64,000 bases of DNA, taken from NCBI RefSeq assembly GCF_012849555.1, contig NZ_CP051685.1:4588001-4652000 (forward strand), in the 5' to 3' direction. Both the position numbers and the translations under genes were made by a program. The notes beneath the pieces are model-generated. The model did no database searches and was not told the origin of the DNA. It was given only the letters and a program-made list of their open reading frames with translations. The stretch is from Massilia forsythiae (GTDB lineage Bacteria > Pseudomonadota > Gammaproteobacteria > Burkholderiales > Burkholderiaceae_D). Below are positions 10,160 through 40,630 of this stretch, in pieces (the stretch's first letter is position 1; each line of letters begins with the position of its first letter).

Positions 10160-10575
10160 GCGGGGAAGGATGGTGGCCGAGACAAGGCCATTATACCCTC
10201 GCCGATATCGTCTGATGTCTGATAAGTTGCTACTGGTGGAACACTTGTTCGGGAACGCGTTCATGAGGGAAGGGAAGGGAGAATCAGTCGCCACGTGCCG
10301 CACTCATTCCTCACTAATTGTCCTAAGGAATTTCTGTTCAGGGCGTAATTCTTTTCCTACTCTAGCTCAGGGAGTGTACTGACATATGATTGTCTTTATT
10401 TTGTTACCATGAATTAACGATCTGTCAACGGTCTATTTGCGCGTGTCATGATGACTTGTTTCTAAAAAATTAGCAGAATCGCATGGGGCAGTCTCAAGAA
10501 CCAACTGCAATACTGGGGATAATGAGTTGACTATTTAAATCAATCGTAGATATTCTTTTCAGGTAATTTTATTTA
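10160..10575. other. Gene-free divergent region, GC-poor
   Basis: The 416 bp between the minus-strand gntR gene and the plus-strand HAD gene hold no recognisable gene. They carry the promoters of both. Composition drops sharply: by direct count 10381-10440 is 33% G+C, against the strongly GC-rich surroundings. A tandem GTCTGATGTCTGAT (10210-10223) lies in the likely upstream promoter area of gntR. I see no transposase, tRNA or clear attachment site. Confidence 0.6.
10190..10195 (-). promoter_or_regulatory. Possible -10 box for the gntR gene
   Basis: TATAAT on the minus strand, 31 nt upstream of the gntR start. No good -35 is seen at 17 nt; the 7-bp tandem repeat (GTCTGAT twice, 10210-10223) occupies that place and might bind a regulator. 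Confidence 0.35.
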
Positions 10576-11244: not shown

Positions 11245-11248
11245 TTCG

Positions 11249-14786: not shown

Positions 14787-14988
14787 TTGCCACCCGCATC
14801 CGTGCCGCCGAAACAGCGGCCATTGTAGCGCGCCGCGGGTCCCGATCGATCACGATGGTGAGTGATTCGCGCACCGGACCCGAAAGCGGCGTCCAGGACG
14901 ATCCGCTGCGGATGGCCGGCTGCTACCATTCCGGCGCCGGCCCCGTGGCGATCCGCGTCCGCCCGGCTTCACCGATGAATGGATGCCC

Positions 14989-18208: not shown

Positions 18209-18700
18209 ATGGACAATGCGCCGGCTTCGCTGGATTTCTCGCAGGGCGCCTACGCGTACACCGCGACGGCGCGCTACGGCCTGTACGGGAATGGCGATTT
18301 CCTGAGTGTCGTCCTGGGGGGCGATGCCCTGGTCATCACCTTCACCGGCGCCAACGTCGATGCGATCGGCGGCAATTTCTACAACACCGGCTTCGATGAA
18401 GAATTCCAGGCGCTGGCGATCACCATCGCCCTGAGCGACGGCACCAGCACCACCTTCGCGCCGACGTCGATCGCCGACAGCTACCGCGGCTTCACCAGCG
18501 ACGTCGCCATCCGCTCGCTGACGATCTCGAACGGTATCTTCTCCAGCTTCGTCACCGTCGACAACCTGACGGTCGGCACGGCCCTGGCCGGGCCGGGCGC
18601 CGACGTGCCCGAGCCGGCCAGCCTGGCGCTGATGGGCGCCGGCCTGGCCGGGCTGGCGCTGCTGCGCCGGCGCCGCACGCCAGCTTCGTCGGCCTTCTAG
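18209..18700 (+). CDS. PEP-CTERM protein lacking its signal peptide (probable pseudogene)
   Basis: 163 aa. The C-terminus is a textbook PEP-CTERM sorting signal: VPEPASLALMGAGLAGLALL then RRRR, recognised by exosortase in cells that export these proteins to the surface or matrix. The rest is a beta-rich extracellular-type domain. No signal peptide is present, although PEP-CTERM proteins need one. In-frame homologous-looking residues (TFDTPTD) continue upstream of ATG 18209 to a TGA at 18164 without any other start. The 5' end has therefore been lost, next to the VOC relic. It could be translated but should not be exported. Confidence 0.7.
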   Translation: MDNAPASLDFSQGAYAYTATARYGLYGNGDFLSVVLGGDALVITFTGANVDAIGGNFYNTGFDEEFQALAITIALSDGTSTTFAPTSIADSYRGFTSDVAIRSLTISNGIFSSFVTVDNLTVGTALAGPGADVPEPASLALMGAGLAGLALLRRRRTPASSAF

Positions 18701-18847: not shown

Positions 18848-20266
18848 ATGACGCAGCACCCGAAACAGCACCCGAAGCAGATCCGCCTCAACGCCTTCAA
18901 CATGAACTGCGTCGGGCACATCCACCACGGATTGTGGAAGCACCCGCGCGACAATTCGGTCGACTACCACAAGCCGGCATACTGGACCGAACTGGCGCAG
19001 CTGCTGGAGCGCGGCCTGTTCGATGCCGTGTTCCTGGCCGATATCGTCGGCGTCTACGACGTGCTCGGCGGCGGCATCGAGGTCACGGCGCGCGAAGCGG
19101 TCCAGCTGCCGGTGAACGACCCGACCTACGTGGTGCCGATCATGGCGCAGGCCACGCGCCATCTCGGCTTCGGCGTCACCGCCAATCTCACCTACGAACA
19201 CCCGTACCTGTTCGCGCGCCGCATGGCGACGCTGGATCACCTGACGTCCGGCCGGGTCGGCTGGAACATCGTCACCGGCTACCTGGACAGCGCCGCGCGC
19301 GCGGTCGGCCTGAAGCAGCAGTTCGACCACGACGACCGCTACGACCGCGGCGACGATTTCCTCGACGCCTTTTATAAGCTGCTGGAAGGCAGCTGGGAGG
19401 ACGGCGCCGTGCTGGCCGACCGCGAACGCGGCGTGTACGCCGATCCGGCGCGCATCCACCGCGTCTGGCACGAGGGGCCGTACTACAAGGTCGACGGCGT
19501 CTACAACCTGACCGCGCCGTCGCCGCAGCGCACGCCGGTGCTGTTCCAGGCCGGCGCCTCGCAGCGCGGCAACCGGTTCGCCGCGCGCCACGCCGAATGT
19601 GTATTCACCGGCGCGCCCGACCGCGCCGGGCTGGCGCGCATCGTCGCCAACATCCGCGCGCTGGCGGTGGAGGCGGGCCGGCGCGCCGACGACGTCAAGG
19701 TGTTTTCCAGCCTGTCCGTGATCGTCGACCGCAGCGCCGCCGCCGCCCGCGACAAGTACGAGGACTACCGCCGCTATGCCAGCGCCGAGGGCGCGCTGGC
19801 GCACATGGTCAGCGGCACCGGCGTCGACCTGGAACGCTTCGGCCTGGACGAGGAAATCACCGACGCCAAGCTGGAAGCGCTGTACCCGGACCGCCTGCGC
19901 CGCGTGGGAGAAGCGCGCGCCGGCCGCTTCCCGCCGGGGACCACGCGCCGCCAGCTGCTGGCCGCGCGTCCGTTCGGTTCGCAGCAACAGCCGCTCGTCG
20001 GCACGCCGTCGCAAGTGGCGGACGAGATCGCCCGGCTGGTCGAGGAGACCGGCGTGGACGGTTTCAACCTGACCCGCACCGTGGCGCCGGAAAGCTACCG
20101 CGACTTCATCGAGCTGGTGATCCCGGAATTGCAGCAGCGCGGTCTGTACAAGACCGCCTACGAAGAAGGCACGCTGCGCGAAAAACTGTTCGGCGCCGGC
20201 CAGGCGCACCTGCCGGCGCGCCACCACGGCGCCAGCCATCGCAGCTGGCAACGGAGCGCGGCATGA
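18848..20266 (+). CDS. FMN-dependent monooxygenase, NtaA/SnaA/DszA family
   Basis: 472 aa, the usual length of this luciferase-like (LLM) group. These enzymes use FMNH2 supplied by a separate reductase and O2 to open C-N or C-S bonds (nitrilotriacetate, pristinamycin, dibenzothiophene sulfone; also alkyl sulfone and sulfonate relatives). Family features: RLNAFNMNCVGHIHHGLW near the N-terminus, RVGWNIVTGYLDSAAR, and VLFQAGASQRGNRFAARHAE. The ATG at 18848 follows GGAGAGCC. The stop overlaps the next gene (ATGA, 20263). Being first in an operon with an ABC importer and an SfnB-like enzyme points to desulfurisation of an organosulfur compound (inferred). Confidence 0.87.
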   Translation: MTQHPKQHPKQIRLNAFNMNCVGHIHHGLWKHPRDNSVDYHKPAYWTELAQLLERGLFDAVFLADIVGVYDVLGGGIEVTAREAVQLPVNDPTYVVPIMAQATRHLGFGVTANLTYEHPYLFARRMATLDHLTSGRVGWNIVTGYLDSAARAVGLKQQFDHDDRYDRGDDFLDAFYKLLEGSWEDGAVLADRERGVYADPARIHRVWHEGPYYKVDGVYNLTAPSPQRTPVLFQAGASQRGNRFAARHAECVFTGAPDRAGLARIVANIRALAVEAGRRADDVKVFSSLSVIVDRSAAAARDKYEDYRRYASAEGALAHMVSGTGVDLERFGLDEEITDAKLEALYPDRLRRVGEARAGRFPPGTTRRQLLAARPFGSQQQPLVGTPSQVADEIARLVEETGVDGFNLTRTVAPESYRDFIELVIPELQQRGLYKTAYEEGTLREKLFGAGQAHLPARHHGASHRSWQRSAA

Positions 20267-22107
20267 ACGCGCCTCGGCACGACGGCGGCGAGGGGTCCGG
20301 CGCCTGGCGCGAGCGCGGCCTGGGCGGACGGCCCGGCGCCAACGATGCGCCGCCGCTGCTGCAGGTGCGCGGCCTGGAGGTGTACTACCCGGACGGCGCG
20401 GCCGTGCACGGCTTCGACCTCGACGTGCACGCCGACGAGGTGGTGGCGCTGGTGGGCGAATCCGGCTGCGGCAAGTCGACCGTGGCGGCCGCCATCGCCG
20501 GCCTGCTGCCGGCGCGCGCGCGGGCGCAGGGCACGATCCGCTTCGAGGGCCGCGAATTGCTGGGCGCGCCGGACGCCGTGCTGCGCGATCTGCGCGGCAG
20601 CCGCATCGGCATGGTCTTCCAGGAGCCGATGACTTCCTTGAATCCGGTCCTGACGATCGGCGTGCAGATCGGCGAGGTGCTGCGGCGCCACTGGAAGCTG
20701 TCCGCGGCGGCGGCGCGCGCCCGCGCCATCGAACTGCTCGACCTGGTCGGCCTGCCCGAGCCGCAGCGGCGCATCGACGATCATCCGCATCACCTGTCCG
20801 GCGGCCAGCGCCAGCGCGTGATGATCGCCATCGCCGTCGCCTGCGAACCGCGCCTGCTGGTGGCGGACGAACCGACCACGGCGCTCGACGCCACCATCCA
20901 GGCGCAGGTGCTGGAACTGCTGGACGGCCTGCGCCGCCGCCTCGGCATGGGGCTGCTATTGATCACGCACGACCTGGCGGTGGTCGGGAAGTGGGCCGAC
21001 CGCGTCGCCGTCATGCGCGGCGGCGCCAAGGTCGAGGAGGGCACGCGCGAGCGCTTGTTCTTCGCCCCGCAGCACCCGTACAGCCGCGGCCTGCTGGCGG
21101 CCTCGCTGCACGTCGGCGCCGGTTGCCACCACGGCACCGTGCGCCTGACCGAGATCGGCGGCGCGGACGAGGGCATCGAGACCACGCCACGGCAGCCGCA
21201 TGCGGCGCCACCGGCGATCCGGGGCGCGGCCGGAGCGGATGCCGGCGCCGTTGCGGCGAACGCCTCGCAAGCGTCCGCTGCCGGACCGGTGCTGGCGGTA
21301 CATAACCTGGTCGCGCAGTACTCGTCGCGCTACGGCACCATCTCGGCGGTCAAGGACGTGTCCTTCGAGATCGCCCGCGGCGAGACGCTCGGCCTGGTGG
21401 GCGAATCCGGCTGCGGCAAATCGACCCTGAGCAAGACCATCGTCGGCCTCAATCCGGCCGTAGGCGGCCAGGTGATCCTGGACGGCACCGACATCGCGCC
21501 GCTGCGCGGGCGTGCCCTGCGGCCGCACCGCAGCAAGGTGCAGGTGGTGTTCCAGGATCCGTACGCTGCGCTCGACCCGCGCCAGCGCATCGGCGATGCG
21601 CTGGACGAGGTACTGGCCGTGCAGCGCGTGCGCGACCGCGGCGAACGGCGCCGGCGGGTGGCGGCCATGCTCGACGCGGTCGGCTTGCCGGCGAGCGCCG
21701 CGCGCCGCTATCCGCACGAGTTTTCCGGCGGCCAGCGCCAGCGCATCGGCATCGCACGCGCCCTGATCCTGCGGCCGAAACTGCTGATCTGCGACGAGCC
21801 GGTGTCGGCGCTGGACGTGTCGGTGCGCGCGCAGATCCTCAACCTGTTCGTCGACCTGAAGCGCGAGTTCGGCCTGTCCTACCTGTTCATCTCGCATGAC
21901 CTGGCGGTGATCGACTACATGGCCGACCGGGTGATGGTGATGCAGAAGGGCGAGGCCGTGGAGACCATCGCGCGCGAGCGGCTGTTCACGGACGCCGCGC
22001 ATCCGTACACCCGTTCGCTGATCGCCGCCGCGCCGCGCTGGCCGGAATCATCAACGCCGGCCCAGGCGCCCGCGCCAATGCCGGCGCCGCTCGCCCGCTT
22101 CGCCTGA
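20263..22107 (+). CDS. Dipeptide-type ABC transporter, fused double ATPase
   Basis: 614 aa with two complete ABC ATPase domains in one chain (about 30-290 and 340-600), as in glutathione importer GsiA. Each half has Walker A ([24 protein letters not shown]), signature ([18 protein letters not shown]) and Walker B ([19 protein letters not shown]). It energises import through the two permeases encoded directly downstream. The start overlaps the monooxygenase stop. The substrate is not readable from ATPases; the locus suggests an organosulfur compound rather than peptides. Confidence 0.92.
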
Positions 22108-22116
22108 GAGGACCGC

Positions 22117-23106
22117 ATGGGCCCCTACATCCGCCGCCGCCTGCTGCAATTCATCCCGATCGCCTTCAGCATCTGCGTGCTGAACTTCCTGCTGATCCAG
22201 CTCGCCCCCGGCGACCTGGCCGAGATCGTCGCCGGCGAAACCGGGCAGGGCGACGCCGGCGCCGACAATGCCGCCTACGTGGCCGAGCTGCGCAAGTCGT
22301 TCGGGCTGGACCAGCCGGCCTGGATGCGCCTGCTCGCCTACCTGGGCCGGCTGGCGCGCTTCGATCTCGGCTATTCGCACCGCTTCGGCGCGCCGGTGGC
22401 GGAGCTGGTCGGCGCACGCATCGGCGCCAGCGCGCTGCTCGGCCTGTCCAGCCTGGCCATCGCGGTAGTGGGCGGCGTGCTGCTCGGCGTGCTGTGCGCG
22501 CGCCGCCGCAACGGCCGCCTCGACCGCCTGGTGTCGGCGCTGATGGCGCTGTGCTATTCGGTGCCGGTGTTCTGGCTGGCGCTGATGCTGGTGGTCGCCT
22601 TTGCCGTCAAGCTGCAGTGGTTCCCGGTCGGCGGCATGCAGGAAGTCGGCATCGAGGCGCAGGGGCGCTGGGCGCAGGTGCGCGACGTGTTGTGGCACCT
22701 GGTGCTGCCGGTGGCGACCTTGTCCGTGTATTCGCTGGCGGTGTACGCCCGCTTCACGCGCGCCTCGATGCTGGATGCGCTGCAGGAAGACTATGTGCGC
22801 ACCGCGCGCGCCAAGGGCTTGTCGGAAGCGGCGGTGCTGCTGCGCCATGCGCTGCGCAATGCCGTGCTGCCGGTGCTGACCCTGGTCGGCGCCCACTTCG
22901 GCGAACTGCTGGCCGGCAGCATCGTGGTCGAGACCGTGTTTTCCTGGCCCGGCCTGGGCAAGCTGACCTACGACGCCGTGCTGGGCCGCGACACCAGCCT
23001 GCTGCTGTCGATCCTGTTCCTCAGTTCCATGCTGGTGCTGGCCACCAGCCTGGCGCTCGACATCCTGACGGCGCGGCTCGATCCGCGCATCGACCTGCAA
23101 CGCTGA
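22117..23106 (+). CDS. ABC transporter permease (DppB/GsiC type)
   Basis: 329 aa inner-membrane permease with six hydrophobic segments. It begins MGPYIRRRLLQFIP, standard for the DppB group, and has the EAA loop around DYVRTARAKGLSEAAVLLRH that contacts the ATPase. It starts 9 nt after the ATPase gene with a GAGAGGA ribosome site. It pairs with the DppC-type permease that follows. Confidence 0.92.
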   Translation: MGPYIRRRLLQFIPIAFSICVLNFLLIQLAPGDLAEIVAGETGQGDAGADNAAYVAELRKSFGLDQPAWMRLLAYLGRLARFDLGYSHRFGAPVAELVGARIGASALLGLSSLAIAVVGGVLLGVLCARRRNGRLDRLVSALMALCYSVPVFWLALMLVVAFAVKLQWFPVGGMQEVGIEAQGRWAQVRDVLWHLVLPVATLSVYSLAVYARFTRASMLDALQEDYVRTARAKGLSEAAVLLRHALRNAVLPVLTLVGAHFGELLAGSIVVETVFSWPGLGKLTYDAVLGRDTSLLLSILFLSSMLVLATSLALDILTARLDPRIDLQR

Positions 23107-23113
23107 AGCCATG

Positions 23114-23144
23114 ACGACGAATCCACGACGAATCCACGACGATG
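23114..23144 (+). repeat. 11-bp tandem repeat at the second permease start
   Basis: ACGACGAATCC occurs twice (23114-23124, 23125-23135) with a partial third copy that runs into the ATG at 23142. The spacing between the first permease gene and the second is made almost wholly of this repeat, and no Shine-Dalgarno sequence is visible in it. Confidence 0.7.
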
Positions 23145-24059
23145 AGCATACCGCAACCGATCCCGGCGTCCGTTTCCGCGGCCGCCTCCCTGTCCGATTC
23201 CGCGCCGGCGCCGGCGACGCCGCCGTCCCCGGCGCGCCAGACGGCCGCCTTCCCGGCGCAGGCGCGGCTGGCCCTGGCGGCGCTGCTGCTGGTGCTGCTG
23301 GCCGCCGTATGCGCGCCGCTGCTGTACCCGGGCGACCCGCTCGACATGACGCTGCCGCCCTACCTGTGGCCGGGCCAGGACTGGCGCCACCCGCTGGGCT
23401 CCGACCTGATGGGGCGCGACCTCGGCGCCGGCCTGGCGCACGGCGCGCGCGTGTCGCTGCTGGTGGGCGCCGCCGCCGCGGCCTTGAGCTTGTCGATCGG
23501 CGTGGCGGTCGGCACGCTGGCCGGCTGGCATGGCGGCTGGATCGACAACGCCCTGATGCGCGTGACCGACTTCTTCCAGATCGTGCCGCGCTTCCTGCTG
23601 GCGATCGTGCTGGTGGCGGCGCTGGAGCCGTCGCTATGGGTGGTGGTGCTGGCGCTCGGCGTGACGTCCTGGACCCACACCGCGCGCGTGGTGCGCGCCG
23701 AGGTGCTGGGCCTGCGCAACCGCGAGTACGTCCAGGCCGGCATCGCCGCCGGCATGGGCCAGGCGCGCATCGTGCTGCGCCACGTGCTGCCGAACGCGTT
23801 GACGCCGATCCTGGTCAGCACCTCGATCGTGGTGGCCGGCTGCATCCTGTCCGAGTCGGCCCTGGCCTTCCTCGGGCTGGGCGACCCCAACCTGCCCAGC
23901 TGGGGCGCGATGATCGCATCGAGCCGCGAGGCGATCCAGAGCGGCTGGTACATGATCGCCATCCCCGGCGCCGCCGTGACGCTGACCGTGTGGTCGCTCA
24001 ACGTGCTGGGCGACGCCCTCAACCAATACTTCAACCCCAAGCTGAGAGACCGAGCATGA
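23142..24059 (+). CDS. ABC transporter permease (DppC/GsiD type)
   Basis: 305 aa. An extended Ala/Pro-rich N-terminal cytoplasmic stretch (about 1-40) precedes six membrane segments. DppC-group features are HPLGSDLMGRDLGAG and the EAA loop NREYVQAGIAAGMGQARIV. It forms the heterodimeric channel with the preceding permease. The start codon lies within an 11-bp tandem repeat and lacks an obvious ribosome site, so translation may depend on coupling. Its stop overlaps the SfnB-like start (ATGA at 24056). Confidence 0.92.
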   Translation: MSIPQPIPASVSAAASLSDSAPAPATPPSPARQTAAFPAQARLALAALLLVLLAAVCAPLLYPGDPLDMTLPPYLWPGQDWRHPLGSDLMGRDLGAGLAHGARVSLLVGAAAAALSLSIGVAVGTLAGWHGGWIDNALMRVTDFFQIVPRFLLAIVLVAALEPSLWVVVLALGVTSWTHTARVVRAEVLGLRNREYVQAGIAAGMGQARIVLRHVLPNALTPILVSTSIVVAGCILSESALAFLGLGDPNLPSWGAMIASSREAIQSGWYMIAIPGAAVTLTVWSLNVLGDALNQYFNPKLRDRA

Positions 24060-25393
24060 CACCACCCATCACCGCCATCGGCCCGGGCAGGGCGCACCTG
24101 ATCCGCGACGACGAAGAGGCATTGGCCGTCGCCGCCGCGCTGGCCGCGGAGTTCGCGCCCGGCGCCGCGCAGCGCGACCGCGAACGCCGCCTGCCGCTGG
24201 CGGAACTGCGCCGCATCCGCCAGAGCGGCCTGTGGGGCATCACCGTGCCGCGCGAATACGGCGGGGCCGGCGTGTCGTACGCGACGCTGGCGCGCGTGAT
24301 CGCGCTGCTGGCCGCGGCCGACGGTTCGATCGGCCAGATCCCGCAGAACCATTATTTCATTATCGAGATCATCCGCCACGAGGGCAGCGAGCAGCAGAAG
24401 CGCTTCTTCTTCGAGCGCGTGCTGGCCGGCGACCACTTCGGCAACGCGCTGGTGGAGCCGGACGTGCGCAGGCCGGAAGACCGCAAGGTCAGCCTGACCC
24501 GCGACGCGGGCGGCGAAGGCTGGCGCGTCAGCGTGCGCAAGTTCTACTCGACCGGCGCGCTGTTCGCCGAGTGGGTGCCGGTGGCGGTCGGCGACGCCGA
24601 CAGGAAGCACTGGCTGGCGATCTATCCGCGCGACGCCGAGGGCTTGAGCGTGATCGACGACTGGGCCGCCTTCGGCCAGCGCACCACGGCCAGCGGCAGC
24701 GTGCTGGTGGACGACGCGTACCTGGCGCCGCACCTGCTGGTGCCGCACACGCTGAATGCCGACCATGTGAAACCGGTGGCGCCGATCGGCCAGGTACTGC
24801 ACGCGGCGATCGACACCGGCATCGCGCGCGCCGCCTTCGAGGCGACGATCGCCTTCATCCGCGCGCGCAATCCGCTGCCGCCGGATGCGCCGCCCGGCAC
24901 GCCGTGGGAAGAGGACCAATTGAGCATCCGCGAGGTGGGCGAGCTGGCCGTGGCGCTGCATGGCGCCGAGGCGCTGCTGGAGCGTGCCGGCCTGGCCATC
25001 GACCGTGCCTGGCAAACGGCTGCCGCGCACGACTGGACGCGCGCGGCGGTGGCGGTGTCGGAAGCGCGCGCCGCCTCCACCCACGCGGCGCTGCTGATCA
25101 CGAATAAACTGTTCGAACTGGCCGGTACGCGCTCGACCGCGCCGGAACACGGCCTGGACCGCCTGTGGCGCGACGCGCGCACGCACACGCTGCACGATCC
25201 GGTGCGCTGGCGCCTGTTCGACGTCGGCAACTACTACCTGAACGGCAAGGCGCCGCTGCGCCGGCCGAAGTATCTGGAGCAGCCGCAGGCGGCGTCCGCG
25301 CATCCGGTGCCGGCACCGGCGCCCGATGCGCAGGCCGTACCGGCGCAGGCAACGACCGCGCCGGCGCCGGTGCGCGCCGCGGCGGCGCTGTGA
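24056..25393 (+). CDS. SfnB/DszC-like flavin-dependent monooxygenase (acyl-CoA dehydrogenase fold)
   Basis: 445 aa with the acyl-CoA dehydrogenase fold: helical N-domain (about 10-135), beta barrel (about 140-240, RKFYSTGALFAEWVPV) and C-terminal helical bundle. The LWGITVPREYGGAGVSY and IPQNHYF motifs fit the SfnB family of sulfur acquisition oxidoreductases, related to DszC, which use reduced flavin and O2 rather than dehydrogenate CoA esters. About 40 disordered Ala/Pro residues close the chain. It is coupled to the permease gene upstream and followed 11 nt later by the binding-protein gene. The substrate is unknown; sulfones or sulfides are likely by family. Confidence 0.87.
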   Translation: MTPPITAIGPGRAHLIRDDEEALAVAAALAAEFAPGAAQRDRERRLPLAELRRIRQSGLWGITVPREYGGAGVSYATLARVIALLAAADGSIGQIPQNHYFIIEIIRHEGSEQQKRFFFERVLAGDHFGNALVEPDVRRPEDRKVSLTRDAGGEGWRVSVRKFYSTGALFAEWVPVAVGDADRKHWLAIYPRDAEGLSVIDDWAAFGQRTTASGSVLVDDAYLAPHLLVPHTLNADHVKPVAPIGQVLHAAIDTGIARAAFEATIAFIRARNPLPPDAPPGTPWEEDQLSIREVGELAVALHGAEALLERAGLAIDRAWQTAAAHDWTRAAVAVSEARAASTHAALLITNKLFELAGTRSTAPEHGLDRLWRDARTHTLHDPVRWRLFDVGNYYLNGKAPLRRPKYLEQPQAASAHPVPAPAPDAQAVPAQATTAPAPVRAAAAL

Positions 25394-25404
25394 GGAGGGC
25401 GCAT

Positions 25405-27087
25405 ATGCAGCGAACCGGCATCAATCCCGTTTTCGATTCCCTGTCCGATCCGGCGCGCCGGCGCCTGCTGCGCCTGGCCGGCGCCGCGCTCGCCGGCGGC
25501 GCGCTGCCGCGACTGGCGCACGGGACGGCAGCCGCGCCTGCGCCTGCCGCGCCTGCGCCGGCCAAGGCCGCGCCGTCCGCCGCCACGCCCGAACGCGGCG
25601 GCACGCTGGTGGCGCTGGCCTTTCCGGAACCGTCCACGCTCGCCTTCCACGTCAACGGTTCCAACCCGAACCTGCTGGTCACCTCGAAGATCTACGACCG
25701 CCTGTTCGTCAACGGCAACGACGGCAAGCTGGTGCCGCGCCTGGCGCTGTCGGCCGAGGAATCGAAGGACGGGCTGGCCTGGACCATCCGGCTGCGCCGC
25801 GGCGTGACTTGGCACGACGGCCACCCGTTCGGCGCGGACGACGTCAAGTACTCGATCGAGACCATGTGGCCGCGTTCGATGAACAGCAGCTTCACCGCCG
25901 TCATCGAACGGGTGACGGCGCCGGACCCGCTGACGGTGGTGGTGCGCCTGAAGGAACCCTGGCCGGTGCTGGTCAACTACCTGGGCAGCAACAGCGGCGT
26001 GATCATGCCGCGCCACCTGTACGAGGGCACCGACCTGGTCACCAACCCGTGCAACAACCGGCCGGTCGGCACCGGGCCGTTCGTGTTCAAGGAATGGCAG
26101 CGCGGCAGCCACATCGTCCTGGAACGCAACCCGAACTATTATCTCCCTGGCTTGCCGCACCTGGACCGCATCGTCTGGAAGGTGGTCAACGATTCCGCCA
26201 GCCGCGCGGCGATGCTGGAAACCGGCGCCGCCCACTACGCGGCGCGCAACCCGGTCACCTTCAGCGACGCCGCGCGCCTGCGCCAGCTGCCCGGCCTGGC
26301 GCTCGACACCGCCCAGTACGAGCCCAGCACCTACTGGCTCGAATTCAACCTGCGCGACCCGCTGCTCGGCAAGCCGGCGGTGCGCCAGGCCATCGCCCAC
26401 GCCATCGACCGCGCCGCGCTGGTGCGCACCGTGTGGGGCGGCTACGGCGCCGCGCTCGATGCGCCGGTGCCGTCCGGCCTGCCGCAGTACGTGGTGAAGG
26501 ACGCCGCGCGCTATCCGTTCGACCCGCGGCGCGCCGAGCAATTGCTGGATGCGGCCGGGCTGCCGCGCAAGGCCGGCGGCTGGCGCTTCCGCCTGGTGCA
26601 CGACTTCATTCCCTTCGGCGACGACTACCGCCGCACCGGCGAGTTCGTGCGCCAGGCGCTGCGCCGCGTCGGCATTGATTGCGTGCTGGGCGGCAAGGAC
26701 TTGTCGACCTGGACGCGCGACGTGTTCACCGGGCGCCAGTTCCAGATGATCAGTTCCTGGGGCAGCTGGATGCCCGATCCCCAGAGCAGCTTCGACATCC
26801 GCTACGGCAAGCGCGGCGACCGCGTCGGCGTCCCTTGGAGCAAGGTGTCCGGCTACAGCAACGCCGAGATCGACCGTCTGCTCGACCAGACCCGTTCCGG
26901 CGTCGATCGCGCCGCGCGCGCCGTCAACTACCAACGCGTGCAGCGCATCGTGCAGGCCGACCTGCCGGTGCTGCAATTGCTGGAAGTGCGCTTCTTTTCG
27001 GTGGTCGGCAGGCGCGTGCACAACATCGACGAGTTTCCTTACCAGACCCGCAATAATTTCGCGAATGTGTGGCTGAGCAAGGCATAG
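25405..27087 (+). CDS. ABC transporter substrate-binding protein, family 5
   Basis: 560 aa periplasmic binding protein of the oligopeptide/nickel (SBP_bac_5) family. The N-terminus RRRLLRLAGAALAGGALPR resembles a Tat or Sec signal, followed by an Ala/Pro linker. Family landmarks: LAFPEPSTLAFHVNG, the WTIRLRRGVTWHDGHPF stretch, and GTGPFVFKEWQRGSHI. It delivers the ligand to the two permeases encoded upstream. Start ATG 25405 after GAGGAGG. It closes the import part of the sulfur locus. Confidence 0.92.
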   Translation: MQRTGINPVFDSLSDPARRRLLRLAGAALAGGALPRLAHGTAAAPAPAAPAPAKAAPSAATPERGGTLVALAFPEPSTLAFHVNGSNPNLLVTSKIYDRLFVNGNDGKLVPRLALSAEESKDGLAWTIRLRRGVTWHDGHPFGADDVKYSIETMWPRSMNSSFTAVIERVTAPDPLTVVVRLKEPWPVLVNYLGSNSGVIMPRHLYEGTDLVTNPCNNRPVGTGPFVFKEWQRGSHIVLERNPNYYLPGLPHLDRIVWKVVNDSASRAAMLETGAAHYAARNPVTFSDAARLRQLPGLALDTAQYEPSTYWLEFNLRDPLLGKPAVRQAIAHAIDRAALVRTVWGGYGAALDAPVPSGLPQYVVKDAARYPFDPRRAEQLLDAAGLPRKAGGWRFRLVHDFIPFGDDYRRTGEFVRQALRRVGIDCVLGGKDLSTWTRDVFTGRQFQMISSWGSWMPDPQSSFDIRYGKRGDRVGVPWSKVSGYSNAEIDRLLDQTRSGVDRAARAVNYQRVQRIVQADLPVLQLLEVRFFSVVGRRVHNIDEFPYQTRNNFANVWLSKA

Positions 27088-27102
27088 GTCTGCCGTTCGC
27101 CA

Positions 27103-27123
27103 AGCCGCGTCCATGGCGCGGCT
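27103..27123 (+). terminator. Possible terminator after the ABC/monooxygenase operon
   Basis: AGCCGCG (27103-27109), 7-nt loop, CGCGGCT (27117-27123), with a T-run only at 27136-27141. The distance between stem and T-run makes it a weak candidate. Confidence 0.35.
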
Positions 27124-27256
27124 GTCACTTCGCGTCTTTTTATCATGACAACCATCTGTTGCGATTCGTTCCCTGAATGATCGGAAGTACTTTATTTCTG
27201 TTTGCTAATCACTGAGGCTGCCCTTATCATTTCATCCGCAATCTTGTTGCGAATGC

Positions 27257-28489
27257 ATGGTTCTTGAACACTTGATAACAATGACAACGAAGACACCCGC
27301 GGCGGGCAGCCGCTTCGACCAGCAACAGGACCTGCAGGCGATCGACGCGCTGCGCGGCTATGCCGTGTTGCTGGTGATCTGCATGCACGTCTTCATCCAT
27401 GTGCCGACGCTGGCCTGGCCCGTCAAACGCCTGCTGCTGCTCGGCCACACGGGCGTGCAACTGTTCTTCCTGGTGTCGGCGGTGACGCTGCTGATGTCCT
27501 GGAGCCGCGATACCGGACATGCGTTCGGCGCCCGGGCGCGCCAGTTCTTCGTCAACCGCTGGTTCCGCATCGCCCCGCTGTATTTCCTGGCGATCGCCTT
27601 CTACTGGTTCTTCGAACAGCGCACGCTGGACGAATTCAACCTCGCGCGCCTGGTCGGCACGCTGCTGTTCTATAACGCCTGGTCGCCCTACCTGCTGCCG
27701 ACGATCGGCGGCTGGATGCCGGCGCCGGGCGGCTGGAGCATCAGCGTCGAATTCATGTTCTACCTTGTGTTTCCGCTGCTGGCCATGCTGGTCACGACCA
27801 TGCGCCGCGCCGTGCTGTTCGTGGTGCTGGCGTACGCGCTCATGCTGGCGGCGTCGGTGTTCGGCCAGGGGCTGTATCCGGAAGTCGGCGCCGAGGCGCG
27901 CGACCGCTTCCTGTTTTTTTGGCCGCCGAACCAGCTGGTGGTGTTCGCCATCGGTTTCCTGCTGTACCGCGCGGTCAAGTCCGCCGCCGTGCAGGACTGG
28001 GTGCGGCGCTCGCGCCTGGACGCCGGCGGCGCCACGGCGCTGCTGGTCGCGGCGCTGCTGGCGGTCCAGTTCTATCCCGGCAAAGGGTGGGAGCTGCTCG
28101 TGTTCCTGTTGCCGCAGCACCTGTTGCTGACGCTGCTGTTCGCGGGCTGGGCGCTGTTCATGCTGCTCAAGCCGCGGGCCGCGGTGGCGCCGGGCACGGT
28201 GGTCGAGATCGGCAAGATGAGCTTCAGCATCTACCTGATCAACTTCGCCGCGCTGGCATCGGTCGAGACCCTGCTGTCCATGCTCTGGCCGTTCGGCGTG
28301 ACCGGCATCCTGTCCGTGGTGTACGCGGCGATCCTGTTCGTGCTGGCGACGTTCGCGTCGTACCGGGTGGCGCGCTTCACCTACCGCTACGTGGAGCGGC
28401 CGTGCGTGCGCTTCGGCAAGGCGCTGCACGGCGCCGACCGGCATGCCTGGCTGTCCATCAAGACCGGCGATCGGCGCGAGGGCCTGTAA
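27257..28489 (+). CDS. Acyltransferase 3 family membrane protein
   Basis: 410 aa (402 if ATG 27281 is used) with about ten membrane segments. The N-terminal signature AIDALRGYAVLLVICMHVF with its catalytic-type His, and APGGWSISVEFMFYLVFP further on, identify the OafB/OatA-type acyltransferase-3 family that O-acetylates or O-acylates surface sugars. It has no link by family to sulfur use yet lies in the middle of that locus, separated by 169 nt from the binding-protein gene. Neither start has a clear ribosome site. The target glycan is unknown. Confidence 0.87.
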   Translation: MVLEHLITMTTKTPAAGSRFDQQQDLQAIDALRGYAVLLVICMHVFIHVPTLAWPVKRLLLLGHTGVQLFFLVSAVTLLMSWSRDTGHAFGARARQFFVNRWFRIAPLYFLAIAFYWFFEQRTLDEFNLARLVGTLLFYNAWSPYLLPTIGGWMPAPGGWSISVEFMFYLVFPLLAMLVTTMRRAVLFVVLAYALMLAASVFGQGLYPEVGAEARDRFLFFWPPNQLVVFAIGFLLYRAVKSAAVQDWVRRSRLDAGGATALLVAALLAVQFYPGKGWELLVFLLPQHLLLTLLFAGWALFMLLKPRAAVAPGTVVEIGKMSFSIYLINFAALASVETLLSMLWPFGVTGILSVVYAAILFVLATFASYRVARFTYRYVERPCVRFGKALHGADRHAWLSIKTGDRREGL

Positions 28490-28582
28490 AGCGTGGCGCC
28501 TCGACGCGCATGCTTATGCCCGTCAAATGGCATCCCGCATAGGGCGTCGAAGCCGCGCGGTTGATCCGGCACGGGCGGCGCA

Positions 28583-29506
28583 TCAGATCGTCGCAGGCTC
28601 CGCCAGGTGCTCGGCCTGCAGGCCGGGCGCGAACATCTCGATGAAGCGGTGCGCGAAGCTGGGCAGGAATACGCCGTTGCGCACGCCCAGCATGGTGGTG
28701 CAGGTGCCGAACAGCTGGCCGTCGGTGTCCAGCACCCGCAGGCCGTCGCGCGCCAGGTCTTCCAGCGCCATCTCGGCCACGATGCCGACGCCGAGCCCGC
28801 GCCGCACGTAGGTCTTGATGACGTCGGCGTCCATCGCCGTCAGGCGCAGGTCCGGTACCAGGCCGGCGGCGCTGAAGGCGGCATCCACGCAATGCCGTCC
28901 GGTGAATTGCTCGTTGTAGGTCACCAGCGGATAGGCGGCGATGTCGGCCAGCGTCACCGGCGCGCGCGCCAGCAGCGGGTGGCCCGGCGGGACGATCACC
29001 ACGTGGCGCCAGGTGAAGCAGGTGTAGGCGCGCACGTCCGGCGCCCCGTCGAGCGCTTCGCTGGCGATGCCGATGTCGGCGTCGCCGTCGCTCAGCATGG
29101 CGGCGATCTGGCGCGGCGTGCCCTGGTGCAGCTCCAGCGCCACCTTCGGAAACGCCCGGTTGAATTTCTCGACCACGCCCGGCAGCGTGTAGCGCGCCTG
29201 CGTGTGGGTGGCGGCGATCACCAGGCGGCCGCTGTCCACGCCGGCGTACTGGCTGGCATAGCGGCGCAGGTTTTCCGTCTCCAGCAGGATGCGGCGCACG
29301 ATGTCGACGGCGCCGTCGCCCGCACGGGTGACGCCGGTCAGGCGCTTGCCGGAGCGCACGAACAGCTCGATGCCCAGCTCTTCCTCTAGATCCTTGATCT
29401 GCTTGCTCACGCCGGACTGCGAGGTGTACAGCACGGCCGCCACTTCGGTCAGGTTCAGGTTGTTGCGGACGGCTTCGCGCACGAAGCGCAATTGCTGGAA
29501 ATTCAT
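28583..29506 (-). CDS. LysR-type regulator, CysB/Cbl-like
   Basis: 307 aa. The N-terminal winged helix-turn-helix (MNFQQLRFVREAVRNNLNLT, then YTSQSGVSKQIKDLEEELG) and the inducer domain pattern (AATHTQARYTLP, TYNEQFTGRHCVDAAF) are those of CysB and Cbl. These LysR activators respond to sulfate, APS or O-acetylserine and switch on sulfur-starvation genes. It is divergent from the TonB receptor gene and next to the organosulfur operon, so it likely activates both under sulfate limitation (inferred). It is a plain LysR length with no extra domains. Confidence 0.9.
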   Translation of the reverse strand: MNFQQLRFVREAVRNNLNLTEVAAVLYTSQSGVSKQIKDLEEELGIELFVRSGKRLTGVTRAGDGAVDIVRRILLETENLRRYASQYAGVDSGRLVIAATHTQARYTLPGVVEKFNRAFPKVALELHQGTPRQIAAMLSDGDADIGIASEALDGAPDVRAYTCFTWRHVVIVPPGHPLLARAPVTLADIAAYPLVTYNEQFTGRHCVDAAFSAAGLVPDLRLTAMDADVIKTYVRRGLGVGIVAEMALEDLARDGLRVLDTDGQLFGTCTTMLGVRNGVFLPSFAHRFIEMFAPGLQAEHLAEPATI

Positions 29507-29849
29507 TCTGGCTCCATTAAATACCTATTGGGCACCTCGAAAACCGTCGCGAGCGGCAGCCAGGGTGGTCGAGAAACGCAGCTGTACGAGAGGTACAGCG
29601 AGCATCGCAGACCGCCCTGGCAACGCGCAGCAGGTTTTTCGGGGTGTCCATTCTCATCTTCATCAAAAAGTACGGTTTTGCCAACGAATCCTTCCGAATA
29701 TGGTTACTCAAACCATGCCGCATGGGGAAGCTGCGCAGGTTGCGCATCGGATGGATATGACGTTTCTCCTGCAAAGCATCGCAGTTTTGATTGTTTGTGC
29801 GGCGCAGCAGGATTGGCTAACGTGCGGGGACCGTTTCATCCACCCCACC
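29507..29849. other. Divergent lysR / TonB receptor intergenic region
   Basis: 343 bp without a recognisable gene. It must hold the promoters for the CysB-like regulator and the TonB receptor, and it is richer in A+T toward 29640-29720. The clear structure is the nested inverted repeat at 29559-29621. I found no match to a riboswitch I know. Confidence 0.5.
29559..29621. repeat. Nested inverted repeat, possible structured RNA or operator
   Basis: The outer arms GCCAGGGTGGTC (29559-29570) and GACCGCCCTGGC (29610-29621) pair over 12 bp with one G-T position. Inside is a perfect 7-bp hairpin, GCTGTAC (29581-29587), GAGAG, GTACAGC (29593-29599). The two strands between the stems are near-identical 10-mers, GAGAAACGCA and GAGCATCGCA. 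It lies 53 nt upstream of lysR and 229 nt upstream of the receptor gene. Confidence 0.6.
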
Positions 29850-32201
29850 ATGAAAGCAGACATGAGCAGACAAGCGACCCCGGCGCAGCAGGCCGCCATC
29901 CGATCCGTTACCGCACATCCGGCCCGCGCCGGCCGCCACGCCCCGCAGCGCGCCTTGCGCTGCACGGCGATCGGCGCCGCCGTGGCGGCCATGTGCATGG
30001 CGAGCGGGATGGCGGCCGGCGCCGTGGACGCGGCGCCGGCACTGGCGGCGGCAACGCCGGCGGCGGGCGTCGACAATGGCGCCGGCGTGGCCACGGCGAG
30101 CGCCGCAACGGCCGACGCCGGCGCTGCCGCGGCGCCGGCGGCCGACGCGTTGCCGCCGGAAGGCGCGGGCGGCGTGGTCCACGTGCGCGGCAAGGCGCTC
30201 AGCGGCGCCGACAAGGCCAAGCTGCGCCTGGACGACATTCCCGGCGGCGTCAGCGTGGTCGACGCCGCGCAGGTCGAAAAGGGGCGCGTGTTCACCAACG
30301 AGGACGTGCTGGCCTTCCAGCCCGGCGTGTACGCGCAGGCGGCTGGCGGCACCGACGGCATCAAGATCTCGATCCGCGGCTCGGCCATCAACCGCGGCAC
30401 CAACTTCTTCCGCTCCGGCACCCTGTTCCTGTTCGACGGTCTGCCGGTCACCGGCCCGGGTGGCACCCCCTACGAACTGTTCGAGCCGCTCGGGCTGTCG
30501 CGCACGGAAGTGCTGCGCGGCGCCAACGCCTTCGACGCCGGCGCGCTGATGCTGGGCGGCGCTATCAACTACGTCACTCGCACCGGCCAGGACGCGGCGC
30601 CGTTCGAGGCGCGCGTGGAGGGCGGCAGCTACGGCTACCGCAAGGCCTACGTCAGCTCGGGCCAGGTGATCGGCAAACTGGATTACTACGTCGCCGCGGT
30701 GGACGCGGAGCGGCGCGGCTACCAGGCGCTGTCGCACGGCGAGTCGCGCGGGGTGATCGCCAATCTCGGCTACCGGTTGGCCGACGACGTGCAGACCCGC
30801 TTCTACTTTCGCTGGCGCCAGACCGACAACGAGCAGCCGGGCGCGCTGACGGTGGCGCAGGTGGAAAGCGACCCGCGCCAGGCCAATCCGGTGGCGGTGC
30901 AGCAGAATGCCCACCGGCGCCAGCCCGGCTCGACCTGGATCGCCAACAAGACCACCTGGAATATCGACGCCGATTCGACGCTGTCGGCCGGCCTGGTGTA
31001 CCACAACTACCCGATCGACCAGGAACTGTCGGTGAACGCCGGCCGCTGGGGCTTCGCCGACGCCTCGGCCGTGCTCGACTACGAAACGCGCGGCATCCTG
31101 TTCGGCCGCGCCAGCAAGACCAAGGTCGGCCTGCTCTACACCGGCCACCTGCACGGCTGGCTCGACACCTATGTGCGCATCCCGGCCGCCGCCACCGCGG
31201 CGCTGGCGACCGGCACGCGCATCCGCCACTCGAACTACGACGGCGCCGACACCACGCTGCACGCCGGGAACGACCTGGAACTGGCGCCGCGCCTGTGGCT
31301 CACCAGCGGCGTCTCGGCGGTGCACACGCAGCGCCAGACCGCGGTCACCTTCCCGGTCACGAACGAGGACTACCGCCGCACCACCAACGCGCTGGCGCCG
31401 CGCCTGGGCCTGCGCTATACGCTCGACAACGACGTGCAGCTGTTCGCCAACGCCAGCCGCAGCATCGAACCGCCCAACAGCTGGGCCTTCCTCACCACGC
31501 CGCCGACCTTCACCAGCGGGCCGGCCACCGGCCTGGCACGGCGCGGCCTCGATTTGAAGGACCAGGCAGCCAACACGCTCGAACTGGGCACGCGCGGCCA
31601 GGCCGGCGCGGCCAGCTGGAGCCTGAGCGTGTACCGTGCGCACGTGCGCAACGAACTGCTGTCGGTCGAAGTGGTTCCGGCCACGGCCACCACCGCCGCG
31701 CTGACGGCCGAATCGAACGCCAGCCCGACCATCCACCAGGGCGTCGAGGCCGGGCTGGAATCGCGCTTGTGGGACGGCGGCGCGGCCGGCAGGCTGAGCA
31801 CGCGCCATTCGTTCACGCTGAACGATTTCCGCTTCCGCCGCGACGCCAGGTTCGGCGACAACACGCTGCCCGGCATCCCGCGCCGCTGGTACCAGGGAGA
31901 ACTCCAGTACGAGCGCCCCAACGGCCTGTATGCGGGCGTGAGCGTGCAGGCGGCCTCGCGCATCGACGTCGACTACGCCAACTCGTTCAAGACGCACGGC
32001 TACGCCATCCTCAACGCCAGCCTCGGCTACGACCACCCGAGCGCCGGCTGGAAGGTGTTCCTCGACCTGCGCAACCTCGCCAACAAGCATTACGTGTCGA
32101 GCGTGGCGCCGGCCTACAACGATGCCGGCACCGACCAGCGCCGTTCGGCGCCGGGCGAGGGCTTCGGCATCTACGGCGGCCTGTCGGTCGCGTTCCGCTG
32201 A
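29850..32201 (+). CDS. TonB-dependent receptor of the sulfur locus
   Basis: 783 aa. A long Ala-rich leader (signal segment about residues 30-60) precedes a plug domain (about 110-230: KLRLDDIPGGVSVVDAAQV, KISIRGSAINRGTNFF) and a 22-strand-type barrel ending in the aromatic GGLSVAFR. It imports a scarce ligand across the outer membrane using TonB. The size (about 700-800 aa) is that of siderophore-like receptors, unlike the 1000+ aa carbohydrate-type receptors later in the window. It lies divergent from a CysB-like regulator and 13 nt before an SfnB-like gene, so the ligand is probably an organosulfur compound (inferred). ATG 29862 is an alternative start. Confidence 0.87.
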   Translation: MKADMSRQATPAQQAAIRSVTAHPARAGRHAPQRALRCTAIGAAVAAMCMASGMAAGAVDAAPALAAATPAAGVDNGAGVATASAATADAGAAAAPAADALPPEGAGGVVHVRGKALSGADKAKLRLDDIPGGVSVVDAAQVEKGRVFTNEDVLAFQPGVYAQAAGGTDGIKISIRGSAINRGTNFFRSGTLFLFDGLPVTGPGGTPYELFEPLGLSRTEVLRGANAFDAGALMLGGAINYVTRTGQDAAPFEARVEGGSYGYRKAYVSSGQVIGKLDYYVAAVDAERRGYQALSHGESRGVIANLGYRLADDVQTRFYFRWRQTDNEQPGALTVAQVESDPRQANPVAVQQNAHRRQPGSTWIANKTTWNIDADSTLSAGLVYHNYPIDQELSVNAGRWGFADASAVLDYETRGILFGRASKTKVGLLYTGHLHGWLDTYVRIPAAATAALATGTRIRHSNYDGADTTLHAGNDLELAPRLWLTSGVSAVHTQRQTAVTFPVTNEDYRRTTNALAPRLGLRYTLDNDVQLFANASRSIEPPNSWAFLTTPPTFTSGPATGLARRGLDLKDQAANTLELGTRGQAGAASWSLSVYRAHVRNELLSVEVVPATATTAALTAESNASPTIHQGVEAGLESRLWDGGAAGRLSTRHSFTLNDFRFRRDARFGDNTLPGIPRRWYQGELQYERPNGLYAGVSVQAASRIDVDYANSFKTHGYAILNASLGYDHPSAGWKVFLDLRNLANKHYVSSVAPAYNDAGTDQRRSAPGEGFGIYGGLSVAFR

Positions 32202-32214
32202 AAGGAGGCACGCC

Positions 32215-33504
32215 ATGAACATCGACCGAATCCCACTGCCGCCGCCGCAGCCGCCGCAAGCACCCAGCGACGCCGAACTGGCCGCGCGCTTCCGTCCCGT
32301 GTTTGCGCGCATCGCCGCCGGCGCCCTGGCGCGCGAGCAGGAGCGCCGCCTGCCGTTCGAGGAAGTCGAATGGCTGCGCGCCGCCGGCTTCGGCGCGCTG
32401 CGCATCCCGCAGGCCTGGGGCGGCATCGGCGCCAGCCTGCCGCAGTTCTTTGCCCTGCTGGTGGAACTGGCGGCCGCCGATTCCAACCTGGCGCACCTGT
32501 TGCGCGGCCATTTTTCCTTTCTCGAGAGCCGCCTGAACCACGAGGACGAGGCCACGCGCGCGTTCTGGTTCCCCAAGGTGGTGGACGGCGCCCTGATCGG
32601 CTACGCCATGGCCGAGCAGACGGCCGGCTCGACCATCGCCACCACCATCACCCGCGCCGGCAACGGCTGGCGCCTGGACGGCAAGAAGTTCTACAGCACC
32701 GGCACGCTGTACGCCGACTGGATCGTCGCCACCGCGCTCGACGGCGCGCAGGTCGTCAGCCTCGCCTTTCCCGCGACGCTGGCGGGCGTGACGCGGCTGG
32801 ACGACTGGGACGGCTTCGGGCAGCGCATGACCGCCAGCGGCACCACCGTGTTCGAGGACGTGGCGCTGGGCGACGAGCACATCGTGCGCCGCTTCGACGG
32901 CAAGCCGCCGGGCGGCTACCACAAGGCCTTTTTGCAGCTGGTGCTGCTGGCCAGTATCGGCGGGGTCGGGCGCGCGGTGCTGCAGGACGCCGTCGCGTTC
33001 GTGCGGCGCAAGACGCGCGCCTTCGACGTGGCGGGCGAATCGCGCCCGCGCCACGACCCGCTGGTGCAGCGCGTGGTCGGGCGCCTGGCCAGTTTGTCGT
33101 ACGCGGCGGACAGTTTGGTGGCCGGCGTGGCGCGTTCGCTGGAGGCGGCACGCGCACGCATCGTCGACGGCAGCGCCGACGATGCGCTGTTCACGGCGAC
33201 CGAGATCGAGGCGTTCCAGGCGCAGCAGGTGGTGATCGACCTGGTGCTGCAGGCCAGTAACCTGCTGTTCGAGGTCGGCGGCGCTTCCGCCACCAGCGAG
33301 GCGCGCCGGCTGGACCGCCACTGGCGCAATGCGCGCACGGCGGCCTCGCACAACCCGGCCATCCTGCGCGAGCGGATGATCGGCGACTATCACCTGAACG
33401 GCACGGCGCCGGCGCAGGGCGGGGCGGGGGCGCCGCCGGCGCGGGAAGAGGAAACGGCGCCGCCGGCGCCGGTGGATGTTCAGCCGCGCGACGCCGTCAC
33501 GTAG
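32215..33504 (+). CDS. Second SfnB/DszC-like flavin-dependent monooxygenase
   Basis: 429 aa with the acyl-CoA dehydrogenase fold. N-domain GALRIPQAWGGIGASLPQF, barrel motif GKKFYSTGTLYADWIV, and DGFGQRMTASGTTVFEDV match the SfnB/DszC type. It is related in pattern to the enzyme at 24056-25393 but clearly diverged. A strong ribosome site (AAAGGAGG) precedes ATG 32215, 13 nt after the receptor gene, so the two are co-transcribed. The last 25 nt overlap the end of the opposite-strand Sel1 gene. The C-terminal 40 residues are Pro/Ala/Glu-rich and probably disordered. Confidence 0.87.
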   Translation: MNIDRIPLPPPQPPQAPSDAELAARFRPVFARIAAGALAREQERRLPFEEVEWLRAAGFGALRIPQAWGGIGASLPQFFALLVELAAADSNLAHLLRGHFSFLESRLNHEDEATRAFWFPKVVDGALIGYAMAEQTAGSTIATTITRAGNGWRLDGKKFYSTGTLYADWIVATALDGAQVVSLAFPATLAGVTRLDDWDGFGQRMTASGTTVFEDVALGDEHIVRRFDGKPPGGYHKAFLQLVLLASIGGVGRAVLQDAVAFVRRKTRAFDVAGESRPRHDPLVQRVVGRLASLSYAADSLVAGVARSLEAARARIVDGSADDALFTATEIEAFQAQQVVIDLVLQASNLLFEVGGASATSEARRLDRHWRNARTAASHNPAILRERMIGDYHLNGTAPAQGGAGAPPAREEETAPPAPVDVQPRDAVT

Positions 33505-34349: not shown

Positions 34350-34495
34350 GATTCCTCCTGTATCGTTGTCGTTGGATGGGGAACATGCTGCGGGTCGAGT
34401 ATAGCCCTGCACCGGCGGGCGTGTATCGCTCAATCGGATGAGTGTTTTGCAGGCGATGGACCGGAGCCCATGCGCCGGCCCCTACACTGCGCAGC

Positions 34496-40525: not shown

Positions 40526-40630
40526 GGGATCTCCTCCGTGGTGTGCCGCACTGGGCATCTTGTGGGTGACTGCACGGAAGAGGATAGCAGCGGCGTGCGC
40601 GCTGCGATCCGGGGCGGCAGCGGCGCCGCC

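Follow-up and report, generated by a model that had tools for sequence, protein, structure and literature searches.

A candidate sulfur-starvation scavenging locus with a TonB-dependent receptor, a dipeptide-type importer and flavin-dependent monooxygenases in Massilia forsythiae

A group of genes at positions 18848-33504 of a 64,000-nt stretch of Massilia forsythiae DNA (contig NZ_CP051685.1, positions 4,588,001 to 4,652,000; the whole stretch is hereafter the window) encodes a TonB-dependent outer-membrane receptor, a dipeptide-type ATP-binding cassette (ABC) importer, several flavin-dependent enzymes and a CysB-like LysR regulator. We read it, with a probability of roughly 0.6, as a sulfur-starvation locus that scavenges a scarce or bulky organosulfur compound. 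A sulfur-scavenging role had already been proposed in an initial annotation of this DNA and is now better supported than that annotation could show: an operon of receptor, SfnB2 and importer recurs in several bacterial classes, SsuD or SsuD-like genes occur in three sister loci, and the regulator is a CysB-like paralogue associated with a candidate operator. The proposal of a single, self-contained route is not supported in its initial form. The locus belongs to a 6.37-Mb genome in three contigs and comprises the following features, among which all nine genes initially named are present with open reading frames:

18848-20266, + strand: LLM-a, an LLM-class flavin mononucleotide (FMN) monooxygenase of the NtaA/DmoA/LadA type (TIGR03860)
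20263-22107, + strand: fused two-domain ABC ATPase of the dipeptide/nickel/glutathione importer type (two PF00005 ABC_tran stretches and PF08352, oligo_HPY)
22117-23106, + strand: ABC permease 1, DppB/OppB type (PF00528)
23142-24059, + strand: ABC permease 2, DppC/OppC type (PF00528)
24056-25393, + strand: SfnB1, an SfnB-family DszC-like flavin oxidoreductase (TIGR04022)
25405-27087, + strand: periplasmic binding protein, SBP_bac_5 (PF00496), with a twin-arginine-like leader judged by eye
27257-28489, + strand: acyltransferase-3 membrane protein (Acyl_transf_3, PF01757)
28583-29506, - strand: cluster-specific CysB-like LysR regulator (CysB-family model, just below cut-off)
29682-29706, + strand: candidate operator CAACGAANNNNTCNGNATATGNNTA in the LysR-receptor gap, conserved in four loci
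29862-32201, + strand: TonB-dependent outer-membrane receptor (PF07715 and PF00593; the ATG at 29862 was chosen, 29700 is also possible)
32215-33504, + strand: SfnB2, a divergent SfnB/DszC-like flavoprotein, 13 nt 3' of the receptor

The recurrence of this gene set was examined among 145 genomes of the family, in which the receptor had matches in 10 (E<=1e-60) and SfnB2 in five (E<=1e-90). Close relatives of the receptor, SfnB2 and LysR lie on one contig in four genomes, namely M. forsythiae itself (G000), Pseudoduganella lurida (G133), Herminiimonas sp. KBW02 (G140) and G080. The window receptor, in which the plug (PF07715, 54.9 bits) and barrel (PF00593, 115.6 bits) domains are both recognised, is 70% identical to its counterpart in P. 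lurida, the closest named relative at this locus, and in that species the receptor and importer units are kept together. A contig collection was also scanned with a profile built from seven receptors (that of the window and six picked by score from P. lurida, Herminiimonas and G080), and of the 287 loci obtained the best 80 were considered, 73 of them at least 20 kb long. An SfnB2-type gene (at least 50% identity, no more than 10 kb away on either side) accompanies the receptor relative in nine of these 80 loci, found in P. lurida, Herminiimonas, three Pseudomonas (one a metagenome-assembled genome, MAG), two Sphingomonas, a Lysobacterales MAG and the MAG GS10. Eight of the nine are evidently organised as an operon that also includes importer and LLM genes, and the ninth (L030) is split as in the window. 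The usual order, with variations, is one or more receptors, one or two binding proteins, permease 1, SfnB2, LLM-b, in some cases an aldo/keto reductase, permease 2 and the ABC ATPase; in Herminiimonas sp. KBW02 (L017, L035), three receptors of the clade stand in tandem in one operon. In the two Sphingomonas and GS10, an LLM-a that is 50-51% identical to that of the window and an SfnB1 follow directly downstream of the receptor operon. An SsuD-like gene stands between LLM-a and SfnB1 in L144, the GS10 locus (466 bits on TIGR03565, cut-off 518), and in L145 (462 bits), while in L031 an SsuD above this cut-off (625 bits) is found upstream of the receptors. L144 also carries an SfnB1 above its own cut-off and a flavin reductase (PF01613). 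Judged from these gene arrangements, the association of receptor, importer, SfnB2 and LLM enzyme is not due to chance; its recurrence in three classes adds weight to the sulfur-scavenging reading.

The phylogeny of SfnB2 points in the same direction. In a quickly built tree of 32 rows, some of them near-copies, the 11 receptor-linked proteins (those of the nine collection loci, G080 and the window) and two unlinked ones formed a single clade with 100% SH-aLRT support, and linkage required two label changes, where shuffles gave 9.3 and not one of 500 went as low; linkage in this set is partly by choice, since the linked rows had been found via the receptor. In a sample of 398 genomes of the phylum picked independently of the receptor, SfnB2 was matched in 14 genomes, that of the window included. 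The possibility that SfnB2 is a general marker of the receptor was rejected, as 14 other loci of this sample (44-52% identity, 13 genomes) contained no receptor of the clade within their segments, which measured 19.9 kb for 13 of the 14 and 10.9 kb for L121. Importer genes occurred in two of these loci (L116, L117) and LLM genes at 45-58% identity in four (L117, L120, L122, L126). Taken with the tree, these results suggest that the SfnB2 branch of the window goes with the receptor and that the wider family is often accompanied by sulfur-type enzymes.

The regulator has its best CysB-family match at 391.8 bits (cut-off 402), and the Cbl and CysB equivalog models also remain below their cut-offs; since the match is nearly full-length, the protein is best regarded as a divergent relative. 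Matches to it at E<=1e-85 are common, with three in its own genome and at least one in 131 of the 145 family genomes, and identity reached at least 74% in five genomes of the list sorted by E-value. These five include all four genomes that have the receptor and SfnB2 at 68% identity or more, and in G097 the LysR gene is the sole cluster gene within 19.9 kb. Relatives within clusters are 75-87% identical to the window protein, and the next paralogue in the M. forsythiae genome 55%. By this comparison, the regulator is a third, cluster-specific CysB-like paralogue.

An alignment of the gaps divergent from LysR revealed a 25-bp element common to four loci and lacking from the fifth, G097. The pattern CAACGAANNNNTCNGNATATGNNTA was written from the four loci (G000, G133, G140, G080) and its presence there is by construction; each of these genomes has exactly one perfect site, in every case in the LysR-receptor gap. 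The window contains one site (29682-29706) and 100 shuffles of the window none, and the pattern read backwards, used as a control, had no match in eight genomes. With up to two mismatches, 10 matches were obtained in six of the eight genomes, the four perfect sites and six with one or two mismatches (two in G142, two in G080, one in G133 and one in G018). A one-mismatch copy in G142 (L130, C1:3863415-3866439) adjoins genes named by eye as OsmC-like and cysteine-dioxygenase-like, a hint of a wider CysB-type sulfur regulon. One of the two weaker matches in G080 (L137) adjoins an AraC-like gene. In clusters from beyond the Oxalobacteraceae, the best matches had 5-8 mismatches and no clear site emerged, in a scan that under-reports because it used the most upstream receptor start and missed the perfect Pseudoduganella and Herminiimonas sites.

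From this gene content, a route can be proposed in which the receptor would bind the scarce or bulky organosulfur compound and move it into the periplasm, where the family-5 binding protein would take it up for transport into the cytoplasm by the dipeptide-type importer; the importer of the window would thus carry the cargo of the receptor. A cytoplasmic SfnB/DszC-like flavoprotein would oxygenate the sulfur, and the NtaA/DmoA-type monooxygenase would then break the C-S bond, yielding an aldehyde and a sulfur product for assimilation. The aldehyde would be reduced, in sister loci, by an aldo/keto reductase. Under sulfur limitation, the CysB-like LysR would turn on the receptor-SfnB2 unit from the conserved intergenic site. 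Sulfite, put forward initially as what is released, is a candidate for the sulfur product. DmoA yields a thiol. The pairing of a DszC-like with a DszA/DmoA-like enzyme suggests the logic of CmoO and CmoJ, oxidation followed by cleavage, and the products of CmoJ, in the accessible part of PMC10863075, are a sulfenic acid and an aldehyde. Aldo/keto reductases, as would be expected if an aldehyde is made, were recognised in L018, L021, L113, L033, L034 and L042 (by Pfam in L113 and L042, by similarity in the others).

LLM-a passes the NtaA/DmoA model TIGR03860 with 512.6 bits (cut-off 279.7) and shares 47.0% identity over 451 aligned residues with the dimethyl sulfide monooxygenase DmoA, which cleaves C-S bonds; YtnJ, which we take to be CmoJ, is a more distant relative (195.5 bits). 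Thirteen of the 20 DmoA binding residues listed in the accessible part of PMC9259527, where the list is incomplete at its end, after 366, are retained. SfnB1 passes the SfnB model TIGR04022 (507.1 bits, cut-off 430.9) and, relative to DszC, keeps Asn129, Trp205, Ser215, His388 and His391, with replacements of His92 by Gln, Tyr96 by Asn and Ser163 by Thr. SfnB2 fails the same model (281.7 bits), as does its Herminiimonas relative (265.3 bits), so that of the two SfnB/DszC-like flavoproteins named initially SfnB1 stands and SfnB2 is SfnB-like only. When aligned through the DszC relative 5xb8, SfnB2 has His at the positions of His92 and His391 and Ala at that of His388. The DszC and LadA residues compared in this work are those that we presume to be important. 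No SsuD-type gene was found among the ten cluster proteins, the genome having its own SsuD at C1:1347179, and no flavin reductase among these ten and a selection of 10 flanking open reading frames; on this evidence, calling the system self-contained was too strong.

Several observations weigh against the sulfur-scavenging reading and are given here and in the next three paragraphs together with the alternatives on which they bear. The first concerns the receptor, as 71 of the 80 loci (70 Pseudomonas and one Paucimonas MAG, six on segments shorter than 20 kb) have no SfnB2 nearby, so that the receptor clade as such has no fixed tie to sulfur. These lone receptors (L036-L109) are 46-52% identical, and their neighbours differ in the three loci viewed (L070, L093, L108). 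The others concern the link between the two units of the window. An alignment of 13 binding proteins encoded in the receptor operons of Herminiimonas, Pseudomonas, Sphingomonas, G080 and two MAGs gave 24-29% identity to that of the window, which thus represents another branch and lacks the string WHTNT present in 12 of the 13. An importer module of the window type occurs without a receptor in 20-kb segments of G142, G116, G112 and G350, and of the 18 family genomes in which SfnB1 is matched, 14 have it immediately next to the LLM gene, 13 of these 14 having no receptor match at E<=1e-60. In Herminiimonas, a complete receptor operon stands beside a separate SfnB1-LLM pair. No operator was found before the LLM unit at up to three mismatches, the site being confined to the second unit, so that this comparison lends no support to co-regulation of the two units. 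The window could thus hold two independent neighbouring sulfur systems, one (LLM, ABC importer, SfnB1 and binding protein) for small organosulfur compounds entering through porins, the other (receptor, SfnB2 and LysR) the remnant of a larger receptor operon that has lost its own importer and serves another importer or ligand. We consider this rather unlikely, as both units are also paired in P. lurida and LLM-a and SfnB1 lie directly 3' of the receptor operon in the two Sphingomonas and GS10, arrangements indicative of a shared pathway. Yet an obligatory single route through the outer-membrane step and the window importer, as presented initially, is not supported. The divergent binding protein, the importer units free of receptor and the SfnB1-LLM pairs without one suggest instead that, in the window and P. 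lurida, the receptor unit may have joined a pre-existing importer unit.

The specificity of the oxygenases is a further point. Seven of the 20 listed DmoA binding positions are altered in LLM-a (Q18I, V59I, S137G, G231Q, and GLG at 366-368 replaced by SQQ), and DszC His92 is lost in SfnB1 and His388 in SfnB2. The NtaA/DmoA relatives include enzymes acting on alkanes, chlorobenzenes and riboflavin, and among solved structures LadA (482 bits) outscores DmoA (440 bits), followed by the hexachlorobenzene dehalogenase (332 bits) and the riboflavin lyase (320 bits). LadA Phe10, Cys14, His17, Tyr63, Gln79 and His311 are all kept in LLM-a. The locus might then serve the catabolism of a sulfur-free compound for carbon, with an LLM enzyme of the alkane, chlorinated-aromatic or riboflavin type and the SfnB-like proteins acting as hydroxylases. 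However, the position of LadA His138 is occupied by Tyr, as in DmoA, SfnB1 passes a sulfur-acquisition model, the regulator is CysB-like and SsuD or SsuD-like genes are present in three sister loci, all of which makes a carbon-directed role distinctly improbable.

The importer, of the Dpp/Gsi type, raises the question of peptide or glutathione uptake, with the neighbouring oxidoreductases unrelated to it. For the ATPase, the score on the dipeptide ABC subfamily model NF008453 (511.2 bits) exceeds the cut-off of 408; ranked by E-value, the ATPase and the binding protein are best matched by GsiA and GsiB, respectively, though far below the cut-offs of these models (524 bits against 1077 for GsiA). 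At the column of E. coli DppA Asp408 and OppA Asp419, which we take to be the Asp holding the peptide N-terminus, the window protein has Trp, and the 19 related binding proteins in the alignment all lack Asp there; peptides of the classical kind are therefore unlikely ligands as far as this alignment indicates. GsiB itself has Ser at this column, so that the comparison is silent on a glutathione-like ligand. Overall, uptake of a peptide or of glutathione appears very improbable as the function of the locus.

Just as improbable is a siderophore, nickel or other metallophore route, combining the TonB receptor with a Nik/Cnt-type importer, that would have come to lie beside sulfur genes by chance. 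The best receptor model by E-value is the TonB siderophore receptor TIGR01783 (128.6 bits, below its cut-off of 223.5), and the nearest solved structure is PqqU/YncD, at only 84.6 bits. The ATPase also passes the NikD, NikE, CntF and CntD models, with its two domains adding up in the whole-protein score, which counts against any specific ligand call. The binding protein and permeases, in turn, are below all nickel and staphylopine cut-offs shown (NikA 135.8/393, NikB 247.6/447, NikC 204.3/358), no Fur-box match was found within the window at up to three mismatches, and the receptor is linked to SfnB2 and a CysB-like regulator. An iron role for the lone receptor relatives was considered and rejected, as Fur-like matches (up to seven mismatches) occurred upstream of 7 of the 70 usable loci, out of 71, a level close to that of one shuffle of the same bases (3 of 70).

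A broader interpretation of the sulfur-scavenging reading, offered tentatively as a possibility, is that these loci are a sulfur counterpart of polysaccharide-utilisation loci, patchily distributed among alpha-, beta- and gammaproteobacteria. The TonB receptor and an Opp-type importer would bring in a bulky organosulfur compound intact, its sulfur would be stripped by up to five flavin monooxygenases, and some versions would export the remaining skeleton, the window being a shortened version with a different importer. Four of the 11 genomes with the cluster (Pseudoduganella, Herminiimonas, G080 and Sphingomonas folli) have an ABC exporter pair (PF00664 and PF00005) adjacent to it, at the following positions:

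L021, 2291-7028: ABC exporter pair
L113, 3662-8655: ABC exporter pair
L018, 3292-8211: ABC exporter pair
L087, 6073-9710: ABC exporter pair

The aldo/keto reductase directly adjoins the exporter pair in P. lurida, Herminiimonas and G080. Elsewhere among the 11 cluster genomes, a relative (60%) lies on another contig in GS10 and no close one exists in the remainder, the best in the M. forsythiae genome being 36%. One may guess that these exporters remove the spent, sulfur-free skeleton. In P. lurida, the binding protein is followed by the aldo/keto reductase and two ABC exporters where the window has the acyltransferase.

By spacing, the first unit of the window comprises the LLM-a, ATPase, permease 1, permease 2, SfnB1 and binding-protein genes, separated by 4-nt overlaps or gaps of 9 to 35 nt, and the second comprises the receptor and SfnB2, with the 13-nt gap between them exactly as first described, divergent from LysR. 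The acyltransferase gene between the binding protein and LysR, missing from the initial gene list, starts 169 nt past the binding protein, with a terminator-like and a promoter-like match in between (weak evidence), and had no counterpart at E<=1e-20 in the 24 related-locus segments searched; it probably forms its own transcription unit and is unlikely to be a member of the system. A small protein with a PEP-CTERM sorting motif (18209-18700) is encoded directly 5' of LLM-a. The surroundings are of plant-polysaccharide type, the cluster being flanked by two glycoside hydrolase 2 family proteins and a rhamnogalacturonan lyase (14983-17988, 34442-37909, 38813-40558). Further away, positions 10001-12000 have a lower G+C content (58%) and encode a HAD hydrolase and a sodium/proton exchanger.

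In soil, sulfur occurs mainly in organic form and for the greater part within large molecules, and known bacterial desulfurisation acts mostly on small molecules that cross porins. If the sulfur-scavenging reading is true, an energised outer-membrane step combined with a stack of C-S-cleaving flavoenzymes would give access to organosulfur compounds that are large or very scarce, and a search for the natural ligand would have a defined target in the recurring gene set.

Among the nearest known systems is the atsACBR-sftR-atsK-sftP sulfate-ester cluster of Pseudomonas, which includes the TonB receptor SftP (accessible part of PMC3596284); a TonB step in organosulfur uptake, first taken to be undescribed, thus has a precedent. 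Compared by gene content within that part of the source, this cluster and the window both bring together a TonB receptor, an ABC importer, a LysR regulator and desulfurising enzymes, but the ats/sft importer is of the aliphatic-sulfonate/sulfate-ester type, the enzymes are alkyl- and arylsulfatases, and the gene list does not feature SfnB or NtaA/DmoA enzymes. The DmoA and DszC/DszA pathways are echoed in the 47% identity of LLM-a to DmoA and by the DszC-like SfnB1 and SfnB2, with a C-terminal His kept, whereas DszC His92 is Gln in SfnB1 and His388 is Ala in SfnB2; to our knowledge, these pathways include neither a TonB receptor nor a dedicated importer. The salvage of S-alkylcysteine by CmoO and CmoJ, in which one flavoenzyme oxidises the thioether and the DszA homologue CmoJ cleaves the C-S bond (PMC10863075), likewise uses two flavoenzymes for sulfur oxidation followed by C-S cleavage, and differs in that the accessible part of this source makes no mention of a TonB receptor. 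The SfnB/SfnG, SsuD and MsuCD sulfur-starvation systems resemble the locus in that SfnB1 passes TIGR04022, flavin monooxygenases occur in a sulfur-acquisition context and SsuD or SsuD-like genes are present in three sister loci, and differ in that the window has a dipeptide-type importer and a receptor and no SsuD-type gene in its ten cluster proteins. For sulfur starvation in P. aeruginosa, the accessible part of PMC12581299 names a TonB-dependent protein once, for FpvA. No published description of the present gene set was recognised in the open-access PMC literature, as judged by titles, abstracts or passages.

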